Shown one piece after another: positions 9,054 through 16,477 of a stretch of 55,724 bases of DNA. Origin of the DNA: Nitrososphaerota archaeon (GTDB lineage Archaea; Thermoproteota; Nitrososphaeria; Nitrososphaerales; Gagatemarchaeaceae). Location of the stretch: NCBI GenBank assembly GCA_027339745.1, contig DAHWNW010000002.1:1-55724 (forward strand). The letters run 5' to 3'. How positions within the stretch are numbered: the stretch's first letter is position 1; each line of letters begins with the position of its first letter. Both the position numbers and the translations under genes were made by a program. Under the pieces are notes generated by a model. The model did no database searches, was not told the origin of the DNA, and worked only from the letters and a program-made list of their open reading frames with translations.

Positions 9054-9143
9054 GGGCCCGTAGCCCAGCACGGACAGGGCGTCAGCCTCCGAAGCTGAAG
9101 TGCGGTAGCTCAGAGACCGTGGGTTCGAATCCCACCGGGCCCG
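9054..9143 (+). tRNA. tRNA-Arg (anticodon CCG) with a predicted 15-nt intron in the variable loop
   Basis: Acceptor GGGCCCG/CGGGCCC, D stem GCCC/GGGC, anticodon stem TCAGC/GCTGA closing loop CTCCGAA (anticodon CCG), T arm GTGGG-TTCGAAT-CCCAC, discriminator G. The region between anticodon and T stems is 20 nt, where tRNA-Arg needs 5. Removing 9101-9115 leaves AGACC and a standard 75-nt tRNA. It is not Ser or Leu, because the loop reads CCG and the long arm makes no variable stem. The archaeal splicing motif fits exactly at both ends of the insert. Confidence 0.85.
9101..9115 (+). other. predicted non-canonical tRNA intron (bulge-helix-bulge)
   Basis: Exon bases CTGA (9095-9098) pair with intron bases TCAG (9110-9113) as the 4-bp central helix. 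The flanking 3-nt bulges are AG^T and AG^A, cut after the second base. The intron core GCGGTAGC closes as a GC/GC mini-hairpin with loop GGTA. The outer exon helix is weak, as is common for relaxed motifs at non-canonical positions. Confidence 0.7.
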
Positions 9144-9146
9144 CTA
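9131..9146 (+). repeat. att-like direct repeat, tRNA copy
   Basis: The 3' strand of the T stem, the acceptor strand, the discriminator and three further bases of tRNA-Arg. It matches 14164-14179 at 15 of 16 positions, including the bases beyond the tRNA. Confidence 0.6.
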
Positions 9147-9196
9147 CAATTTTGTATCGGAACCCCCCGTTAAATTCGGCCTCCCACCAGAAGGGA

Positions 9197-9618
9197 ATGG
9201 ACGAAGCGGTCTAGGGAAGGACCGGGCACACTCGCCTCCTGGCCGATAGCGAGTCGAGGAGGTGGTACGACAACGTTCGAAGGGGCTCTCCGATAACCGC
9301 AGACGTCTGCCTCAGAAGGCTCGGTAGCTCGTGCCAGAGGAAGGGCATCAACACAGGGGAGATGCTCGAACATGCAAGGGGCGACGGAGGTGGGCCCTCA
9401 ACTTCCTGGCCGACCTCGTCAAAGAGCTGGAGGGCGAGAAGAAGGCCGGGAGCCGCATTGCACCCAATGTTAAGGTGGTCAAGTCGTGGCTGTCTCACAA
9501 CGGCGTGGACGTCAAGGGAAGACTCCGAATTAGAGGAGCCCACAACTTTGGCAGCAACAATGGACTCCTCACCAGACTACGCGAAGGCCGAATCCGGAGG
9601 AGGCGGCTCGGGCCTTGA
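9197..9618 (+). pseudogene. tyrosine recombinase/integrase remnant, N-terminal part
   Basis: From ATG 9197, MDEAV is followed by TAG at 9212. The same frame then reads WYDNVRRGSPITADV and LRRLGSSCQRKGI up to about 9385, where the match moves one frame to NFLADLVKELEGEKKAGS and VVKSWLSHNGVDVKGR. Joined, these resemble the core-binding (SAM-like) domain of thaumarchaeal XerC/D-type integrases. The catalytic domain with its R-H-R-Y residues is absent before the next gene. It therefore carries an early stop, one frameshift and a 3' truncation. Position directly behind a tRNA supports an integrase origin. Confidence 0.65.
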
Positions 9619-9698
9619 TCAGTGAGTCAAAGGATTGTAATGGTGTTTCATCTGGTGCTCGGCCGGCAAACGAACGAGACTGCATGAATCGGCGGGCG

Positions 9699-12600
9699 TC
9701 AGGATTCGATTGCGTTGATGATGTCTTGAGCGAAATCGGTCAGCACCTGGGCCTGCTGCTGCGTGATGTGTTTCCCGGCCTGTGCGTTCACCTCGTTGAT
9801 GAAAGCATTGAGCTGGTTGGTGGCGATGGCGTTCTGACCTGCTTGAAGGGAATCCATGGCCGCGCTCAGTTTCGCGTCTAAGCTGACTTTGATGCCATTG
9901 GGGATGTTCATTGAATCCTTAATGTTGATGAGGGTTTGAATCGCGTTGGCCGGCGCTTCGTAAGCTGCGGTCGCGACGTGAGGGCCCGTCATCGTCACTG
10001 TGATTGTTTCGGACAACTGCGTCTGGTTGACTCCGTCCACCTCCCAGTTCACGAAGACGTACCCCGTCACGTTGTTTGCAGCAACGTTGACCGTGGCTCC
10101 CGCATCAAAGTATCCGGATGAGGGGGTAGGGGATGGCGACAATCCCTCCGGGTTCGTCTGCACGGTGAGGAGATATTGGACCACGTAGGATCCGGTGACT
10201 GCGTTGGCGCTTGAGACCGTAAACCCAGAGGATGGACCGCTCACCCCGGCTAGGCCATACCTTACCCCCGCCTCCGTACTGCCGACGTAGGGCTGGAAGG
10301 CGTAGGTGATTGTCGCTCCGCCGTCAGCATAGAACGAGCCACCGTTGGGGCCCAAGGTCTGGGTGCCTGCTGGTTGCCCGTTGCTGACCGTGACTGACAC
10401 GAGTTCGCCAGAGGCGTCCGAGGCCAGGCCACTCGCCGAGAAGCTCTGGAGATACTGTGTCTTGTAAGTCGCGTCGATGAATCCGGGCCCGATTACGGTG
10501 AAGGTCCCAGTCTGGGACGATGCGAGCCCCGAGGTCCCGGTCCAGACATACCGGTCACCAGAGGTCCCCTGAATTGGAGAATAGTACGAATAGGTGAGAG
10601 AATTCCCGGAGAGGAAGAGTACCGAGGCGGGGAGCTGTGACTCCTGATAACCTATACCGTTCACCGTCAGTACCGTCGCGGAGCCAGTGTCTGTGCTCAT
10701 GCCCTCTGTCACCAAGCTCACCTGATACTGCTGCGCCCAAATCCAGGTGATGGAAGAAGGCGAGTCGATGTCGAAGAGGACCGAGCAGTGGGTCCTGGAA
10801 CTTGTGATGGCTGAAGGGACCGGACAGGAACCTCCTGAAGGGGCGCTCCCTGAGCCAGCGAACGACGATACGACGTCCTGAACCCCGAACGCTTCCCCAA
10901 TCGGAAAGTAGGAGTCGGTGGCGTTGATCTGCGTTCCCGCGTTGTACCAGCCGCTCGCAGGCGAAGGCGAGCTCAGCACCGACACGAGTTGCGAGTAGTC
11001 AGAGGACACCGCGGAGCTGTCCTGGGTGCTGCTGAAGTAGTACTGGGTGACGTAGTTCCCGGTTACTGTGCTGCACTGGGTCGTGATCGTGAGAGGTGGG
11101 GCGAGCTGCGCTCCACCGCAACCGGTGAAGGAGGAGAGGGCGTACTGCTTGCCCGTGCCCGCTGGGACGGTCGCCTCGTAGGCGACGGGGTTCTCGCCAT
11201 AGGTTCCCCAGACCGTGACGGGGAGCTGGGAGACGCTGTAGTTCGTGCCTGCGATGTTCAAGACAGGAGCCGTGGCGTCGCTTCCCACGCCGCTGCTCTG
11301 CAGCGTCAGTGGAAGCAGCACTATGCCCCCGGTCGCGGGGTTGTAGTTCGGGAAGCCGCTAGCTCCCGAGTAGGTCGTGTTGATCTCTATCTGACCGGTC
11401 GCCTGAGGGAGGGTGAGTTTGACCGAGCAGGCGCTGGGCATTATGAGGTACTGCTGGTTAGAAGGGGGCGGCAGTTTTGCGAGCGTGCAGGACGCGGCGC
11501 TCAGCTGCCCTCCTGACGGCCCAGAGTATGTCCAGGCCACACTGCCGAGCGGAGTCCCTTCGTGCGCGGTGTCAGTCACGGTAGCAGTGCAGGCGGTCTG
11601 GAAGCCTGGAGTCGCGATGACCGGGTCAGGCGAGCAGGAGACCGAGACTGCGGCCGGGTCGTACAGCGCAAGAGGCTCGCTTTGGTAGTTGATCGGTTCC
11701 TGCACGCACTTGTGGCTAGAGTAGCCTGGCAGCGGGCAGCCGCTCCCGGGAAAGAGGGCCCAGCCGCTGACTCCTATGGTCGGCGACCCTACGCTTTCTC
11801 CCTCGAGTGCGTAGGCGGTGGGGAACTGGCATGAGAAGCTGCCTTGCGTTACCGGGCAGAACTCGGTGAAGCCGGGATCGCTGAGCTCGGCTACACCGTC
11901 GGACACGAACTGGAGGCCCGAGGGTCCGTATTGGGTGAAGCCGATGTTGGTGCCCGTGACGTTGACGTTCGACGGGAGATTGTTGGCAAAGACCACGTCG
12001 GGGCTCACGGTCGCCCCTCCCACGAAGAGCAGCGAGGTTGCTGTGTCTCCGGAGGGCCCGTTGCCCGTGGCCAAAAGGTCGTAGGTCCCAGGAGGCAGAG
12101 GCGGGATGGTCACCGCGCAGGAATTGAAGCCGCCTGTGGGTTCGAATCCGCCCAGGGTATTGAGAGTAGAGCAGCTGCCCAGGACCTTTCCCTGGACGCT
12201 TAAGGTGACGTAGTGATCCTCGAGCGAGAAGCCCGTGCCGTTGACTTTGATGGCTGTCCCAGGCGGCCCCGAGAGCGGATTAGATGAGACTATTGGGTAG
12301 ACCGCGAGTGTGCCGCTCTGGGTGTCCAGGGCATTGTTCCCCTCCCCGTATATGGTGAGCGCTTCGCCTAGCTGGACGTTAGGCGGAATCGTCAGGTAGC
12401 AGCTGAAGATGCCTTGGGAGGCAGGGCAGGTTTCGGTCTGTCCCGCCCCGCTCGTTATGTAGACATTGACTGCGGTGTCGTCATACTGGTAGCCGTAGCC
12501 GGTGACCTTCACCGTCTGCCCAGGAAAGACCGCCGCGGGGTCGAAGGAGAGCGGGTACTGGCCCGGGACGCTCAAGACGGTGCTCGCCTGATATATGTCT

Positions 12601-13733
12601 GAGGGGCCTGTGGCTTTCACGAAGTACGGGCCCGGGGGCAGGGTCATGCCTGCGTCAATCGAGCATGCGAAGGCTCCGGCGGACGCTACGCAAGCATTCT
12701 GCAGAAACACGTTGTAATAGCCCGGCCCCGGCTGGTCGATCTGCACATCCACGTGGCTGTCTGACGTGGAAAAGCCGAACCCGCTGACCTGGAACTGCGA
12801 ACCAGAGACGCTCGCGGTGATAGAGGGGGGCGTGATTAGGAAGTCTGCGGAATAGCTCTTGTCGGGAATTCCGTAGGGGAAGTAGGCCGAAACCGTCATC
12901 GTATGGATGCCCGTGCTGTTGTTGGGGACGGAGAAGGTGCATGAGCCTCCTCCGGCCTGTCCAACGTCTCCGTCTGGGACGGGGAGGCAATTCGTGTTGA
13001 ACTTGAAGAGTATGGCGTCCATAAGAAGGTACTGGCCATCCCAGTTGTAGTCCGCGGTTATGTCGCAGATGCCCCCATACTTGGAGATGAAACAGCCGAA
13101 CCAGCCATCGCCGTATACTGTTACCGTTGTGCCCGGTGAGCCTTCGTTCGGAACCAGCCCCATCCCGTCGAGGACGGAGAATTGAGTGGTGGCAATGTCG
13201 TTGGAGTTGCCGTCAGCGTACAGGGCACCGAGCTCATCGCCAGCGCAACTATCAGGGGTTGAGCACGGATTGGCGTACTTGGGGAGCGCAGGCACGATGA
13301 AGAGGCAATCGAAGGAGCCTTCTGTGACAGGGCAGTCGCCGGCAGGGACGTTGCCGCTCGTCTCGACGACGCCGTTGGCAGGGCAGAGGTAGGTCCCCTG
13401 CGGGGGTGCGTATCCCGGAGCGCTCCTCGAGCAATCAGTGCCTGTCACGGCCGTGAAATACCAGACTTCCAGTCCCTGGAGCACGCTGACGTTGACATAC
13501 TGGTCAGAGCTTGAGAAGCCGATGCCTACGATGCTTACAATCGAACCGGGTGCTGCATTTGGAGTAGAGACCGTGACCGAAGGGCCCGTTTGTGCGTGCG
13601 CCGGTGAAGCGGCCAAGGAAAGGAAGATGAAAGACGACCCCAGCAACAGAAAGAGAGTCAGTACGGAGAAGCTGGGCTTGGGGAGCGACAGTTTCGCCGT
13701 TAACACTCTCGGCTCCAAGAGCGACCCCGGCAT
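9699..13733 (-). CDS. large secreted Ig-like/IPT-repeat protein with C-terminal FIMAH-like domain
   Basis: 1344 residues, probably exported and cell-surface associated. A signal peptide with a hydrophobic core at about 23-45 ends near AHAQ. Residues about 50-690 hold five or six IPT/TIG-like beta domains, recognisable by PGxxVxVxGxGF segments such as PGTAIKVNGTGF. Several contain a C-x8-C hairpin (CPVTEGSFDC and three relatives). An Ig-like segment and repeats of the form NGxGYxxSQLPxxV follow, then an InlB-like segment ending GYVFVNWEVDG. The last 80 residues are helical and match FIMAH (NQLNAFINEVNAQAGK). No C-terminal anchor is visible. Role unknown; adhesion or surface binding is likely for this architecture. 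It is the main cargo of the tRNA-Arg island. Confidence 0.8.
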   Translation of the reverse strand: MPGSLLEPRVLTAKLSLPKPSFSVLTLFLLLGSSFIFLSLAASPAHAQTGPSVTVSTPNAAPGSIVSIVGIGFSSSDQYVNVSVLQGLEVWYFTAVTGTDCSRSAPGYAPPQGTYLCPANGVVETSGNVPAGDCPVTEGSFDCLFIVPALPKYANPCSTPDSCAGDELGALYADGNSNDIATTQFSVLDGMGLVPNEGSPGTTVTVYGDGWFGCFISKYGGICDITADYNWDGQYLLMDAILFKFNTNCLPVPDGDVGQAGGGSCTFSVPNNSTGIHTMTVSAYFPYGIPDKSYSADFLITPPSITASVSGSQFQVSGFGFSTSDSHVDVQIDQPGPGYYNVFLQNACVASAGAFACSIDAGMTLPPGPYFVKATGPSDIYQASTVLSVPGQYPLSFDPAAVFPGQTVKVTGYGYQYDDTAVNVYITSGAGQTETCPASQGIFSCYLTIPPNVQLGEALTIYGEGNNALDTQSGTLAVYPIVSSNPLSGPPGTAIKVNGTGFSLEDHYVTLSVQGKVLGSCSTLNTLGGFEPTGGFNSCAVTIPPLPPGTYDLLATGNGPSGDTATSLLFVGGATVSPDVVFANNLPSNVNVTGTNIGFTQYGPSGLQFVSDGVAELSDPGFTEFCPVTQGSFSCQFPTAYALEGESVGSPTIGVSGWALFPGSGCPLPGYSSHKCVQEPINYQSEPLALYDPAAVSVSCSPDPVIATPGFQTACTATVTDTAHEGTPLGSVAWTYSGPSGGQLSAASCTLAKLPPPSNQQYLIMPSACSVKLTLPQATGQIEINTTYSGASGFPNYNPATGGIVLLPLTLQSSGVGSDATAPVLNIAGTNYSVSQLPVTVWGTYGENPVAYEATVPAGTGKQYALSSFTGCGGAQLAPPLTITTQCSTVTGNYVTQYYFSSTQDSSAVSSDYSQLVSVLSSPSPASGWYNAGTQINATDSYFPIGEAFGVQDVVSSFAGSGSAPSGGSCPVPSAITSSRTHCSVLFDIDSPSSITWIWAQQYQVSLVTEGMSTDTGSATVLTVNGIGYQESQLPASVLFLSGNSLTYSYYSPIQGTSGDRYVWTGTSGLASSQTGTFTVIGPGFIDATYKTQYLQSFSASGLASDASGELVSVTVSNGQPAGTQTLGPNGGSFYADGGATITYAFQPYVGSTEAGVRYGLAGVSGPSSGFTVSSANAVTGSYVVQYLLTVQTNPEGLSPSPTPSSGYFDAGATVNVAANNVTGYVFVNWEVDGVNQTQLSETITVTMTGPHVATAAYEAPANAIQTLINIKDSMNIPNGIKVSLDAKLSAAMDSLQAGQNAIATNQLNAFINEVNAQAGKHITQQQAQVLTDFAQDIINAIES

Positions 13734-13878
13734 GACAATTTAGCGCGGTATGCACGTATTGCGGTCGAGTGACGAACCTGGGGATGGAATACTGTCGCAT
13801 GACGATGGGGAATTGTTATCGTGTGGTCTTCTGTCGGTCCGCCACATAACATGATACCACACTTGCGAAGCCTCACGA

Positions 13879-13886
13879 ATATAAAT
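13879..13886 (+). promoter_or_regulatory. TATA-like box upstream of candidate RNA
   Basis: GAATATAAATTCG is the most AT-rich spot of the intergenic region and a good TBP site. It is near-symmetric and could face either way. Facing right, it predicts a start near 13908. Confidence 0.35.
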
Positions 13887-13907
13887 TCGTCACGCACCGG
13901 ACTCCAG

Positions 13908-14035
13908 AGAAGTCACCGGAGCCCGAAATCCGTGTCGAACCAAGAAGAGGAGTCACACGGGTATCCGTGCGAATCCCTTCCGACCGCATGACTCCTCGTT
14001 AAGCCACTTCCCAGCGCCATCATCTTGGCGTTCTT
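13908..14035 (+). ncRNA. candidate structured RNA in intergenic region
   Basis: A perfect 9-bp stem pairs 13947-13955 (GAGGAGTCA) with 13989-13997 (TGACTCCTC). Inside it sits a 5-bp hairpin, CACGG-GTAT-CCGTG (13956-13969). A second hairpin follows at 14013-14032 (AGCGCCA/TGGCGTT, one G.T). A TATA-like box lies about 30 bp before the assumed start. No coding signal was recognised in either direction, and no known RNA family was recognised. The ends are guesses; a protein-binding cruciform is the alternative. Confidence 0.3.
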
Positions 14036-14163
14036 GACTACCGCAAAGAGTTGGGACGCAGAGTCGCAGAGTGGTGCATTGATACCAAGCTGGAATATCA
14101 TTGGATGCAATGACTAAGGGACAGGCGAATGGGAAGGGGGCCTGACACAAAAAGGTGCCTGAA

Positions 14164-14179
14164 CCCACAGGGCCCGCTA
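14164..14179 (+). repeat. att-like direct repeat, distal copy
   Basis: CCCACAGGGCCCGCTA against CCCACCGGGCCCGCTA at 9131-9146: one mismatch in 16, same orientation, with no tRNA structure around it. Confidence 0.55.
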
Positions 14180-14289
14180 GAGAACTTAACCTCGAAAGGG
14201 ATGCGGTTCAGGAGGCAGTCAAGAGCTCCTGCGACGGAGAACGAAGAGGACAAAGGAGACACCAACGCGGAGGAATTGGCGACATTAGT

Positions 14290-14765
14290 TTGAAAAAAGC
14301 AAAACGCGTGATTGTGAAGCGGGCCTCCATGCGAGACTTCGACACTCTGAGAAGGCATCGCAGTGCTTTGCATGAAGAATTGCGTCATAGAACGGACGTC
14401 GAGCATAGAAACGGCGACAGGGCCTATGGAAGACTCTTGGCCGAAATGTCAAGAAGACGGCGGTTCGTGGGGTTCCTAGCATATGTTGACGGCGACCTAG
14501 CTGGAAGCGGCTGCGTGTGGCTTAGAGAAGCGACCCCGAACCCCGTCTCCTAAGACCACTACGAATGTATGCATACCTTCTGTCAATGTACACTATTCCT
14601 GCCTATCGTAACAACGGGGTCGCGACCGCAATCATCAAGGAGGCCATGAAATGGTCGAAGGGTCATGGATATCCGACACTGTTGCTACATGCATCAGAGC
14701 AAGGGCGCCGTGTCTATTCGAAACTGGGCTTTACCGATACGCATGAAATGCGAACCAGACTATGA
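14290..14765 (+). pseudogene. GNAT acetyltransferase, broken by stop and frameshift
   Basis: The first frame, from TTG 14290, reads VKRASMRDFDTL, FVGFLAYVDGDLAGSG and VWLREATPNP, then meets TAA at 14551. Its continuation would read DHYEC. The neighbouring frame from 14565 supplies MYTIPAYRNNGVATAII, with the acetyl-CoA-binding R-x2-G-V/A turn, and GRRVYSKLGF. Together they make a normal GNAT of about 155 residues. One stop and one frame change separate the halves, so the N-acetyltransferase is probably dead. It lies just outside the distal att-like repeat. Confidence 0.7.
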
Positions 14766-14822
14766 CCGCCTGCTGTAGTAGGCTTGAACGCGGAAGAGGA
14801 AAGGACCTGCTCGGGCTGAGAC

Positions 14823-14834
14823 TCCCACCGGGCC
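14823..14834 (+). repeat. third copy of the tRNA-Arg 3'-end core
   Basis: TCCCACCGGGCC, identical over 12 bases to the tRNA-Arg T-stem/acceptor junction (9130-9141). Same orientation; located between the broken GNAT and vapC. Short, so weaker than the other two copies. Confidence 0.35.
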
Positions 14835-14855
14835 TTCCGACGAGTTGAGTGCAAC

Positions 14856-15242
14856 TTACACAATGATAACTTCAGGGAGTCCTTCGAAGTGGCTGTCGCC
14901 TGTTACCACCTTTGCCGACACGACCCTGGCTGTTGCCAGAATGATTGAGTCTGCCATTCCCTAATTCTTGACTTTTGCCTTCCGTTCATAGTTTAGCGCG
15001 CTCGCAAGCAGCGCAGTCTCCCGGTCTACGTTTGCTACCGAGGTCTTTGACGTTATGAACGCGATATCCTCCTCGAATGTTTGCCACTTTTCCCTCAGAT
15101 ACTTTTCCTTCATTTCCGCGAGGCTCAAAGCCGAAGTGGCTGCAGTTTCGCTCTCCACGGACCGGCGAGCTCTCCTTCCCGATTCAGTTCCTCTGAAATA
15201 TTCAATCCAGGCATAGGAATCTATCACATATTCATAACTCAT
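14856..15242 (-). pseudogene. vapC: VapC-type PIN toxin interrupted by in-frame TAG
   Basis: From ATG 15242 the frame opens with YVIDSYAWIEYFRG, carrying the first PIN Asp, then SLAEMKEKY with the conserved Glu. TAG at 14961-14963 ends the product after 93 residues. The same frame continues without shift as GMADSIILATARVV and VVTGDSHFEGLPE, which carry the remaining acidic residues, to TAA at 14856. Read through, it is a full 128-codon PIN ribonuclease. Truncated, it lacks half the metal site. The start overlaps the end of the antitoxin gene, as is usual for vapBC pairs. Confidence 0.75.
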
Positions 15243-15432
15243 GGAACTCACTTTCGTCTTTTGGACTGAATGGCGTCATCTTTGGATGTGCGCCGAACAT
15301 GGTCTCTGGGATGTTCTCGGCCTTATTGATGAGATGCCGTAGAGTCTCGTCCATGCTCCTTGCATGGTATTTCTTCTTGAGTTCCTCCAAGATCTTCGCT
15401 GTGTTTCTCTTCACTTCCACCGTGGCGGGCAT
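15232..15432 (-). CDS. vapB: VapB-type antitoxin
   Basis: 66 residues. The N-terminal part VEVKRNTAKILEELKKKY followed by SMDETLRHLI resembles the ribbon-helix-helix antitoxins paired with archaeal PIN toxins. The C-terminal tail is the likely toxin-binding segment. Its stop overlaps the vapC start, so the pair would be cotranscribed. The reading frame is intact although the toxin is not. A TATA-like TTAATG lies about 27 bp upstream of the ATG. Confidence 0.75.
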   Translation of the reverse strand: MPATVEVKRNTAKILEELKKKYHARSMDETLRHLINKAENIPETMFGAHPKMTPFSPKDESEFHEL

Positions 15433-15453
15433 ATCTACAGACTATGAACTATC

Positions 15454-15463
15454 GACATTAAGG
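15454..15463 (-). promoter_or_regulatory. TATA-like box of vapBC
   Basis: Minus strand GCCTTAATGT, centred about 27 bp before the vapB ATG; moderate match. Confidence 0.35.
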
Positions 15464-15613
15464 CTTGGCCGGTCGACGCGCCTCCAGAGTTGCCAATAAT
15501 CCTCGAAAGCAAGGCATTGGGTCTGCGAGAGAAACGGGGCCGATTGAGGTCTGAGCCAATACGAGCCAGGGCCCCTGCCCCGATTCTTAGGGCAGTCCAG
15601 CCCTGATTGGGAC

Positions 15614-16396
15614 CTAATAGGCGCCCCAGCCTGCGTCCGCGACCACGCAGGACCCGTTCAGGTACCTCGATTCCTGCGAGACCAAGAAAAGAGCCACGCT
15701 CGCGACTTCGGCCGGGTCCCCGACCCTCGGGAGCGTGGCCATTGTCTTGTTCAGGTTCTCCATCCCTCTCGGATTGGGGTCAGCGCTTCCCACGCCTATC
15801 GCGGTCTGCACCGCACCCAAGACGATGGCGTTGCACCTGATTCCATCTTTCCCATATGAAGCCGCTATGTTCTTGGTCAGGCCGATGAGTCCGTGTTTGG
15901 AGACCGTGTAAGCGGCCCCGGCCCTGGCGCCGAACACCCCGGCGAGGGAAGCGGTGTTCAATATGACCCCTCCTCCATGCTCGATCATCGACGGAATCGC
16001 CCTTCGGCTCGCCCTGAACGGCGCAACCAAGTTGACTGACATGACTCGGTCCCACACATCATCAGGGGTATCCACAACTGGCCTCGCCCCGTCCATGATT
16101 CCGGCGTTATTGCACAGGATGTCGATCCGCCCGAAGGAGCGCAGCGTCCCTTCTATCATCTTATCGACATCGCCCCCTACCGATAGATCGAGCACCATGC
16201 CAGAGGCTTTCTTCCCTCCGCCTACGATCTCTTCCACCACTCCGCTGACCCTAGCTGGTATCACGTCGACGGCCACGACGTTGCACCCGTTGTCCGCGAA
16301 CATCTTCGCCATGGCCCTCCCGACCCCCGATCCAGCTCCGCTGACTATCGCGATTTTCCCCTGCAGGGATGACGAAGCCCGGTCTGTCGGACCCAA
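15614..16396 (-). CDS. SDR-family NAD(P)-dependent oxidoreductase
   Basis: Classical short-chain dehydrogenase. The Rossmann motif GAGSGVGRA follows the first strand. NNAG is present, the catalytic Ser is in NTASLAG, and the Tyr/Lys pair is in YTVSKHG (Y-x3-K). The C-terminus VVADAGWGAY is the usual SDR end. Substrate not readable. The frame is open to 16510, but the chosen TTG at 16394-16396 gives a standard 260-residue protein and lies about 35 bp from a strong TATA box, so the leaderless start is preferred. The gene is divergent from the cupredoxin gene. Confidence 0.85.
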   Translation of the reverse strand: MGPTDRASSSLQGKIAIVSGAGSGVGRAMAKMFADNGCNVVAVDVIPARVSGVVEEIVGGGKKASGMVLDLSVGGDVDKMIEGTLRSFGRIDILCNNAGIMDGARPVVDTPDDVWDRVMSVNLVAPFRASRRAIPSMIEHGGGVILNTASLAGVFGARAGAAYTVSKHGLIGLTKNIAASYGKDGIRCNAIVLGAVQTAIGVGSADPNPRGMENLNKTMATLPRVGDPAEVASVALFLVSQESRYLNGSCVVADAGWGAY

Positions 16397-16427
16397 ACGC
16401 TGACCCCCGAAGACGCTCCAAGGATTT

Positions 16428-16438
16428 CGATATTTAAG
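16428..16438 (-). promoter_or_regulatory. TATA box of SDR gene
   Basis: Minus strand CTTAAATATCG, 32-42 bp upstream of the TTG at 16396. Confidence 0.5.
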
Positions 16439-16477
16439 ACCGGGCAGCGTTTTCAATCCTGAGAATCGAGCTGATTC

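Follow-up and report, generated by a model that had tools for sequence, protein, structure and literature searches.

What kind of element fills the 5 kb between two copies of a tRNA-Arg 3′ end in a Nitrososphaerota genome, and did it derive from a virus or plasmid, as a first-pass annotation had suggested? The window, i.e. the whole stretch of 55,724 nucleotides that was analysed, belongs to a 762-kb metagenome bin (G000), which is 60% complete and whose source we infer to be an uncultured thaumarchaeon. It was compared with 30 other genomes of the same genus, which are metagenome bins or of unknown provenance; G, C and L numbers denote genomes, contigs and loci. The 5-kb segment at 9131–14179 constitutes the first unit (unit 1) of a variable array, which extends further, to 16449, and was overlooked in the earlier annotation. 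In window positions, the features of this array are as follows.

9054 to about 9143/9144, forward strand: intact tRNA-Arg(CCG) (ARAGORN), the anchor of the array and its attB
9131–9146, forward strand: attL core CCCACCGGGCCCGCTA, made up of the T-stem 3′ strand, the acceptor strand and 2–3 bases
9147–9197, forward strand: left end of the element, with TTAAAT, a TATA-like box some 28 bp ahead of the integrase ATG (from sequence; conserved in G010:C7 and G003:C11)
9198–9560, forward strand: integrase pseudogene, frameshifted, N-terminal core-binding region only, catalytic domain absent (tblastn)
9699–13733, reverse strand: cargo gene for a 1344-aa secreted protein with an InlB B-repeat and a FIMAH C-terminal domain (Pfam)
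14153–14179, forward strand: attR, consisting of AGGTGCCTGAA and CCCACAGGGCCCGCTA and matching sites in G023 and G031
14290–14765, forward strand: unit 2, GNAT acetyltransferase pseudogene with one frameshift near 14545 (Pfam Acetyltransf_1, E=4e-9, on the C-terminal part)
14824–14836, forward strand: possible third, degenerate core CCCACCGGGCCTT, between GNAT and VapBC
14856–15251, reverse strand: unit 3, VapC (PIN) with an internal stop at 14961–14963 (Pfam PIN, E=2e-5)
15232–15432, reverse strand: likely VapB-type antitoxin partner, suggested by its position overlapping vapC; no family above the cutoff
15614–16448, reverse strand: SDR oxidoreductase gene, named from its translation, within the variable interval and absent from syntenic relatives

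The motif CCCAC[C/A]GGGCCCGCTA occurs at 9131–9146, the 3′ end of the tRNA-Arg(CCG) gene, and again at 14164–14179 on the same strand. The two 16-base copies are identical at 15 of 16 positions, lie 5,033 bp apart and overrun the tRNA by 2–3 bases, which bears out the first-pass description of same-orientation repeats that extend past the tRNA and are separated by 5.0 kb. Such a short repeat, 16 bp with one mismatch, could in principle have arisen by chance in a recombination-prone intergenic region. However, no copy with at most one mismatch arose when the 7.3 kb that follow the tRNA were dinucleotide-shuffled 1000 times, the extended ends are shared with relatives and the core shows a strand bias across 19 genomes, all of which makes coincidence vanishingly improbable. 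Genome-wide, only two other sites match the repeat with at most one mismatch, and both read as the 3′ ends of other tRNAs.

The broken integrase that had been noted directly inside the tRNA side proved to be an N-terminal remnant, and its intact relatives were found within the same genus: comparison with the intact integrases of G003 gave E=5e-27 and 8e-27, in two reading frames (tblastn). The homology covers residues 20–126 of 451, i.e. the N-terminal third, and stops at about 9546; with intact relatives as tblastn queries, no catalytic domain was found anywhere in the 5-kb segment. The remnant by itself has no Pfam match and the intact family gives almost no Pfam signal. Nevertheless, the family is identified as a tyrosine recombinase by the invariant R, K, RPYxxR (YxxR box), H and Y residues of its intact homologs, by a profile match to the structure of the archaeal XerA (PaXerA), by a match to a PHROG integrase family and by an AlphaFold model (pLDDT 85), the fold of which corresponds to those of XerA, IntI4, lambda Int and Cre. 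With respect to its YxxR box, the family agrees with archaeal integrases of the pNOB8 type (PMC8371274). Moreover, of 78 related loci from other archaea, 50 have a facing tRNA gene no more than 500 bp from the integrase, and the placement of the remnant just inside the tRNA therefore follows the rule for this integrase family. An automated search revealed few direct repeats within 6 kb at 78 distant integrase loci. Translation of the integrase probably started leaderless. We also considered an SSV-type split integrase, as a frame in G010 runs through the core; this was rejected, since the conserved ATG and the TATA-like box downstream of the core fit a start inside the element. A second integrase remnant is present elsewhere in G000, at about 257.5 kb on contig C11 (L113:4695–7918, reverse strand), and adjoins a tRNA-like 3′ end; at this locus, a 21-bp sequence, GTTCGATTCCCGTCGGGCCCG, is found at the tRNA-like end and again 3.2 kb downstream on the same strand.

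Both ends of the 5-kb unit have counterparts in other genomes of the genus. Over the 146 bp that begin with the first core base, the left end shares 81% identity with G010:C7; it is also similar to G003:C11, where a long-open integrase frame comes next. The right end (14153–14179, arm plus core) is identical at 26 of 27 positions to G023:C66:182127–182153, and its arm matches 10 of 11 positions of the L108:6821 site in G031, which adjoins a related integrase fragment. Since the left end is common to G003 and G010 and the right end to G023 and G031, both borders are recognisable att sites. At L108, the core has the related integrase on its opposite side, so that sites of this type vary in their architecture.

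Beyond attR, the GNAT gene ends 59 bp before the partial core at 14824, and the final stop of VapC lies 20 bp after this core. Its first 11 of 13 bases are exact, as in 0.1% of shuffles; a 13-mer with at most two mismatches occurs in 6% of shuffles and the match to the type-B profile is weak (E=7), and a third core site in the window is suggestive only. An independent assembly, G013, has the identical layout with 99.7–99.9% identity; differences between the two assemblies are clustered in the VapBC pseudogene (15073–15316), where they are denser than elsewhere in the locus. In seven syntenic genomes (G030, G022, G008, G024 and the three near-identical at the locus, G028, G007 and G029), the flanks are homologous up to 9143 and from 16449, the interval 9144–16448 is absent and 2.7–6.3 kb of other DNA stand in its place. 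The 5-kb unit is carried only by the two near-identical assemblies, as is the sequence at 14180–14857; among the genus genomes compared, we found no copy of the latter without the unit, i.e. no empty site. The proposed boundaries predict that the junction of such a site would have the tRNA running on into ...CCCACCGGGCCCGCTAGAGAACTTAACC.

As homology to the relatives ends at 9143 and returns only at 16449, the mobile unit could instead be the whole of 9147–16448, which would have brought GNAT, VapBC and SDR along in a single 7.3-kb entry, with the repeat at 14164 as an internal leftover site. This is unlikely, since the right arm at 14153 matches other sites and the equivalent interval of the relatives is built from units that were gained and lost separately. 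Such gain or loss of core-bounded units was observed in three genome pairs, one of them exact to the base: compared with G024, G004 carries an additional 877 bp, including a PIN module, which separate the tRNA from the sequence that starts at the tRNA core in G024. In the second pair, G024 has 2,529 bp more than G022, in which the tRNA core is followed by the sequence after the distal core of G024 (77% identity). In the third, G028 has an extra 965 bp, including a VapBC module, at an internal position where a single degenerate site is present in G022.

Throughout the genus, tandem copies of the tRNA-end core are found downstream of tRNA genes. For 19 tRNA-Arg(CCG) loci, the 13-base core was found downstream of the tRNA 15 times on the same strand (G013 supplies one of these cores, and G028, G007 and G029 share one) and twice on the opposite strand, while no core was found upstream. 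The att sites group into types by their 5′ arm, some of which were curated by hand; strict site patterns of type A matched in 11 and those of type B in 6 of 46 family genomes, with no matches in the controls. The units between sites are mostly 0.4–3 kb long and contain one gene or one toxin-antitoxin pair each, with a cargo of PIN toxins, ParE/RelE toxins, RibD, SnoaL, SDR, acyl-CoA ligase, methyltransferase and cupredoxin. The longest array, L040 in G015, has cores at 12924, 9685, 7518, 6121 and 4898 on the reverse strand and four units, which carry a TPR protein with an integrase C-terminal remnant, an acyl-CoA ligase, an unknown and an SDR. A cassette in G026 (L121:4183–4917) carries an NHL-repeat secreted protein and a second protein without Pfam match, which we take to resemble an archaeosortase (ACGGIEE motif). 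In type A sites of relatives, such as L041:7216, the arm GATTCGAACCCATNATGGGTCCGGA resembles a reversed T-arm and is followed by a T-stem mimic, and in several site types a short inverted repeat is retained around 7 bp, as in the T-arm of a tRNA.

The tandem arrangement of one-gene units and their cargo (toxin-antitoxin, SnoaL, RibD) are reminiscent of the cassette array of an archaeal integron, with IntI and attC sites, and one integrase has a weak match to the integron-integrase model, in addition to IntI4 among the fold matches. However, the sites are copies of the tRNA T-arm and acceptor in which inspection revealed no GTTRRRY/RYYYAAC pair; they show no significant hairpin (fold z above −2), and no attI was seen. 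Moreover, the match to the NCBIfam integron integrase, in one of three integrases tested, reached 19 bits against a cut-off of 265. Taken together, we regard an integron proper as very improbable.

An integrase beside a tRNA gene between flanking repeats is a layout common to proviruses and plasmids (PMC6563490, PMC8371274), and the first-pass annotation had read the segment as a decayed member of this kind; on this view, its replication and capsid genes would have been lost. An integrase-type element at a tRNA 3′ end is what we see as well, but an origin from a virus or plasmid appears quite unlikely. ORF, Pfam and PHROG searches revealed no capsid, packaging or replication gene in the 5-kb unit, which carries no viral or plasmid gene, and neither the integrase family nor the 1344-aa protein has a relative in IMG/VR. 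Furthermore, two intact relatives that have retained both ends, L105 (3.4 kb) and L106 (4.5 kb), encode no more than an integrase and two or three secreted or membrane proteins, the latter judged by their N-termini. This does not support the view that almost all element genes are gone: because intact relatives of 3.4–4.5 kb are equally gene-poor, the 5-kb unit is a small element of the usual kind, the integrase of which is broken.

The one very large secreted protein reported in the segment is indeed encoded there by an open frame. It has a signal-like N-terminus, one InlB B-repeat, Ig/IPT-like repeats judged by eye and the C-terminal FIMAH domain, and probably acts at the cell surface. The full-length gene is present only in G000 and its near twin G013, between which it differs by five SNPs (four nonsynonymous and one synonymous), too few to speak on the first-pass suggestion that the cargo was kept by selection. 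Between this gene and attR lies a 51-nt inverted structure with a hairpin inside it (13947–13997, AGGAGTCA...TGACTCCT). On the minus strand, it is similar to the type-C att arm, GATTCGCACGGATACC (nhmmer E=0.03), and it could be another degenerate arm.

Overall, the segment at 9131–14179 is very probably a small integrative element at the tRNA-Arg(CCG) 3′ end, with a decayed integrase, which forms the tRNA-proximal unit of a cassette-like array; the earlier annotation was confirmed in its layout and is partly supported in its interpretation. A tRNA-targeting archaeal tyrosine recombinase with a YxxR, pNOB8-like catalytic box would have inserted the element into the 3′ end of the tRNA gene, with a presumed crossover in the T-arm region. 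The element would have brought its own copy of the T-stem and acceptor strand, leaving the tRNA intact and the displaced copy at the far end as attR. Originally it may have consisted of an integrase beside attL and one cargo gene, the large secreted FIMAH/InlB-repeat protein; loss of the catalytic domain presumably came later. Because its integrase lacks this domain, the unit is unable to move by itself, and it could probably be moved only if a related integrase acted in trans on attL and attR. The array may grow through repeated insertion at one site, with the 5-kb unit as its tRNA-proximal member.

The 5-kb unit is thus an ordinary decayed element, and the surrounding array is the interesting part. 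More tentatively, and as a possibility rather than an expectation, the arrays might constitute an integron-like system without attC. Short cassettes that lack an integrase, including many toxin-antitoxin modules, would enter, leave and change their order at double-stranded sites derived from the tRNA T-arm and acceptor, with tRNA-targeting tyrosine integrases acting on them in trans; the 5-kb unit would be one integrase-marked member of this pool. The array represents a concrete route by which non-model thaumarchaea could gain single accessory genes, and a testable archaeal parallel to bacterial integrons and the ssrA islands of Dehalococcoides. In the literature searched, only larger integrated elements have been reported for this archaeal group, and we found no description of short cassette arrays at archaeal tRNA genes in the open literature (subscription papers were outside the scope).

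Among known systems, the element belongs with the cryptic integrated elements (CIEs) of thaumarchaea, as a small one with a decayed integrase. CIEs carry a tyrosine integrase and short att sites (median 17 bp) and target tRNA 3′ ends; many are without a replication or capsid gene, their sizes have a minimum of 2.6 kb and a median of 17 kb, and tandem insertion is known (PMC6563490, Krupovic et al. 2019). The 5-kb unit shares the integrase type, the short direct repeats with one copy at the tRNA 3′ end and the lack of replication and capsid genes. It differs in that its integrase is a pseudogene of the N-terminal third only, that one 4-kb secreted-protein gene is its sole cargo and that a multi-unit array occupies the site. 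The ssrA islands of Dehalococcoides follow a single RNA gene in tandem and are each delimited by a copy of the 3′ end of this gene; many units lack an integration module and may, as their authors suggest, be cis-mobilizable (PMC3146451). The arrays of the genus likewise consist of tandem units that are bounded by copies of RNA-gene 3′ ends, many without an integration module. However, the ssrA islands are bacterial and use a serine recombinase and a tmRNA target, whereas the arrays described here are archaeal, use a tyrosine recombinase and several tRNA genes, and mostly comprise single-gene or toxin-antitoxin units of 0.4–3 kb. In the CIME/accretion model, attL and attR are kept, the integration genes are lost and the element lies in tandem with others (PMC5704250). 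This also applies to the 5-kb unit, although no conjugative or mobilizable partner was found for it. Finally, archaeal integrons (Ghaly et al. 2022, PMC9668308) resemble the arrays in being cassette-like series of small genes, but have attC hairpins and IntI, both of which are absent from the tRNA-derived sites and arrays of this genus. The array is a variant of the tandem tRNA/ssrA islands (CIMEs), and not an attC integron.
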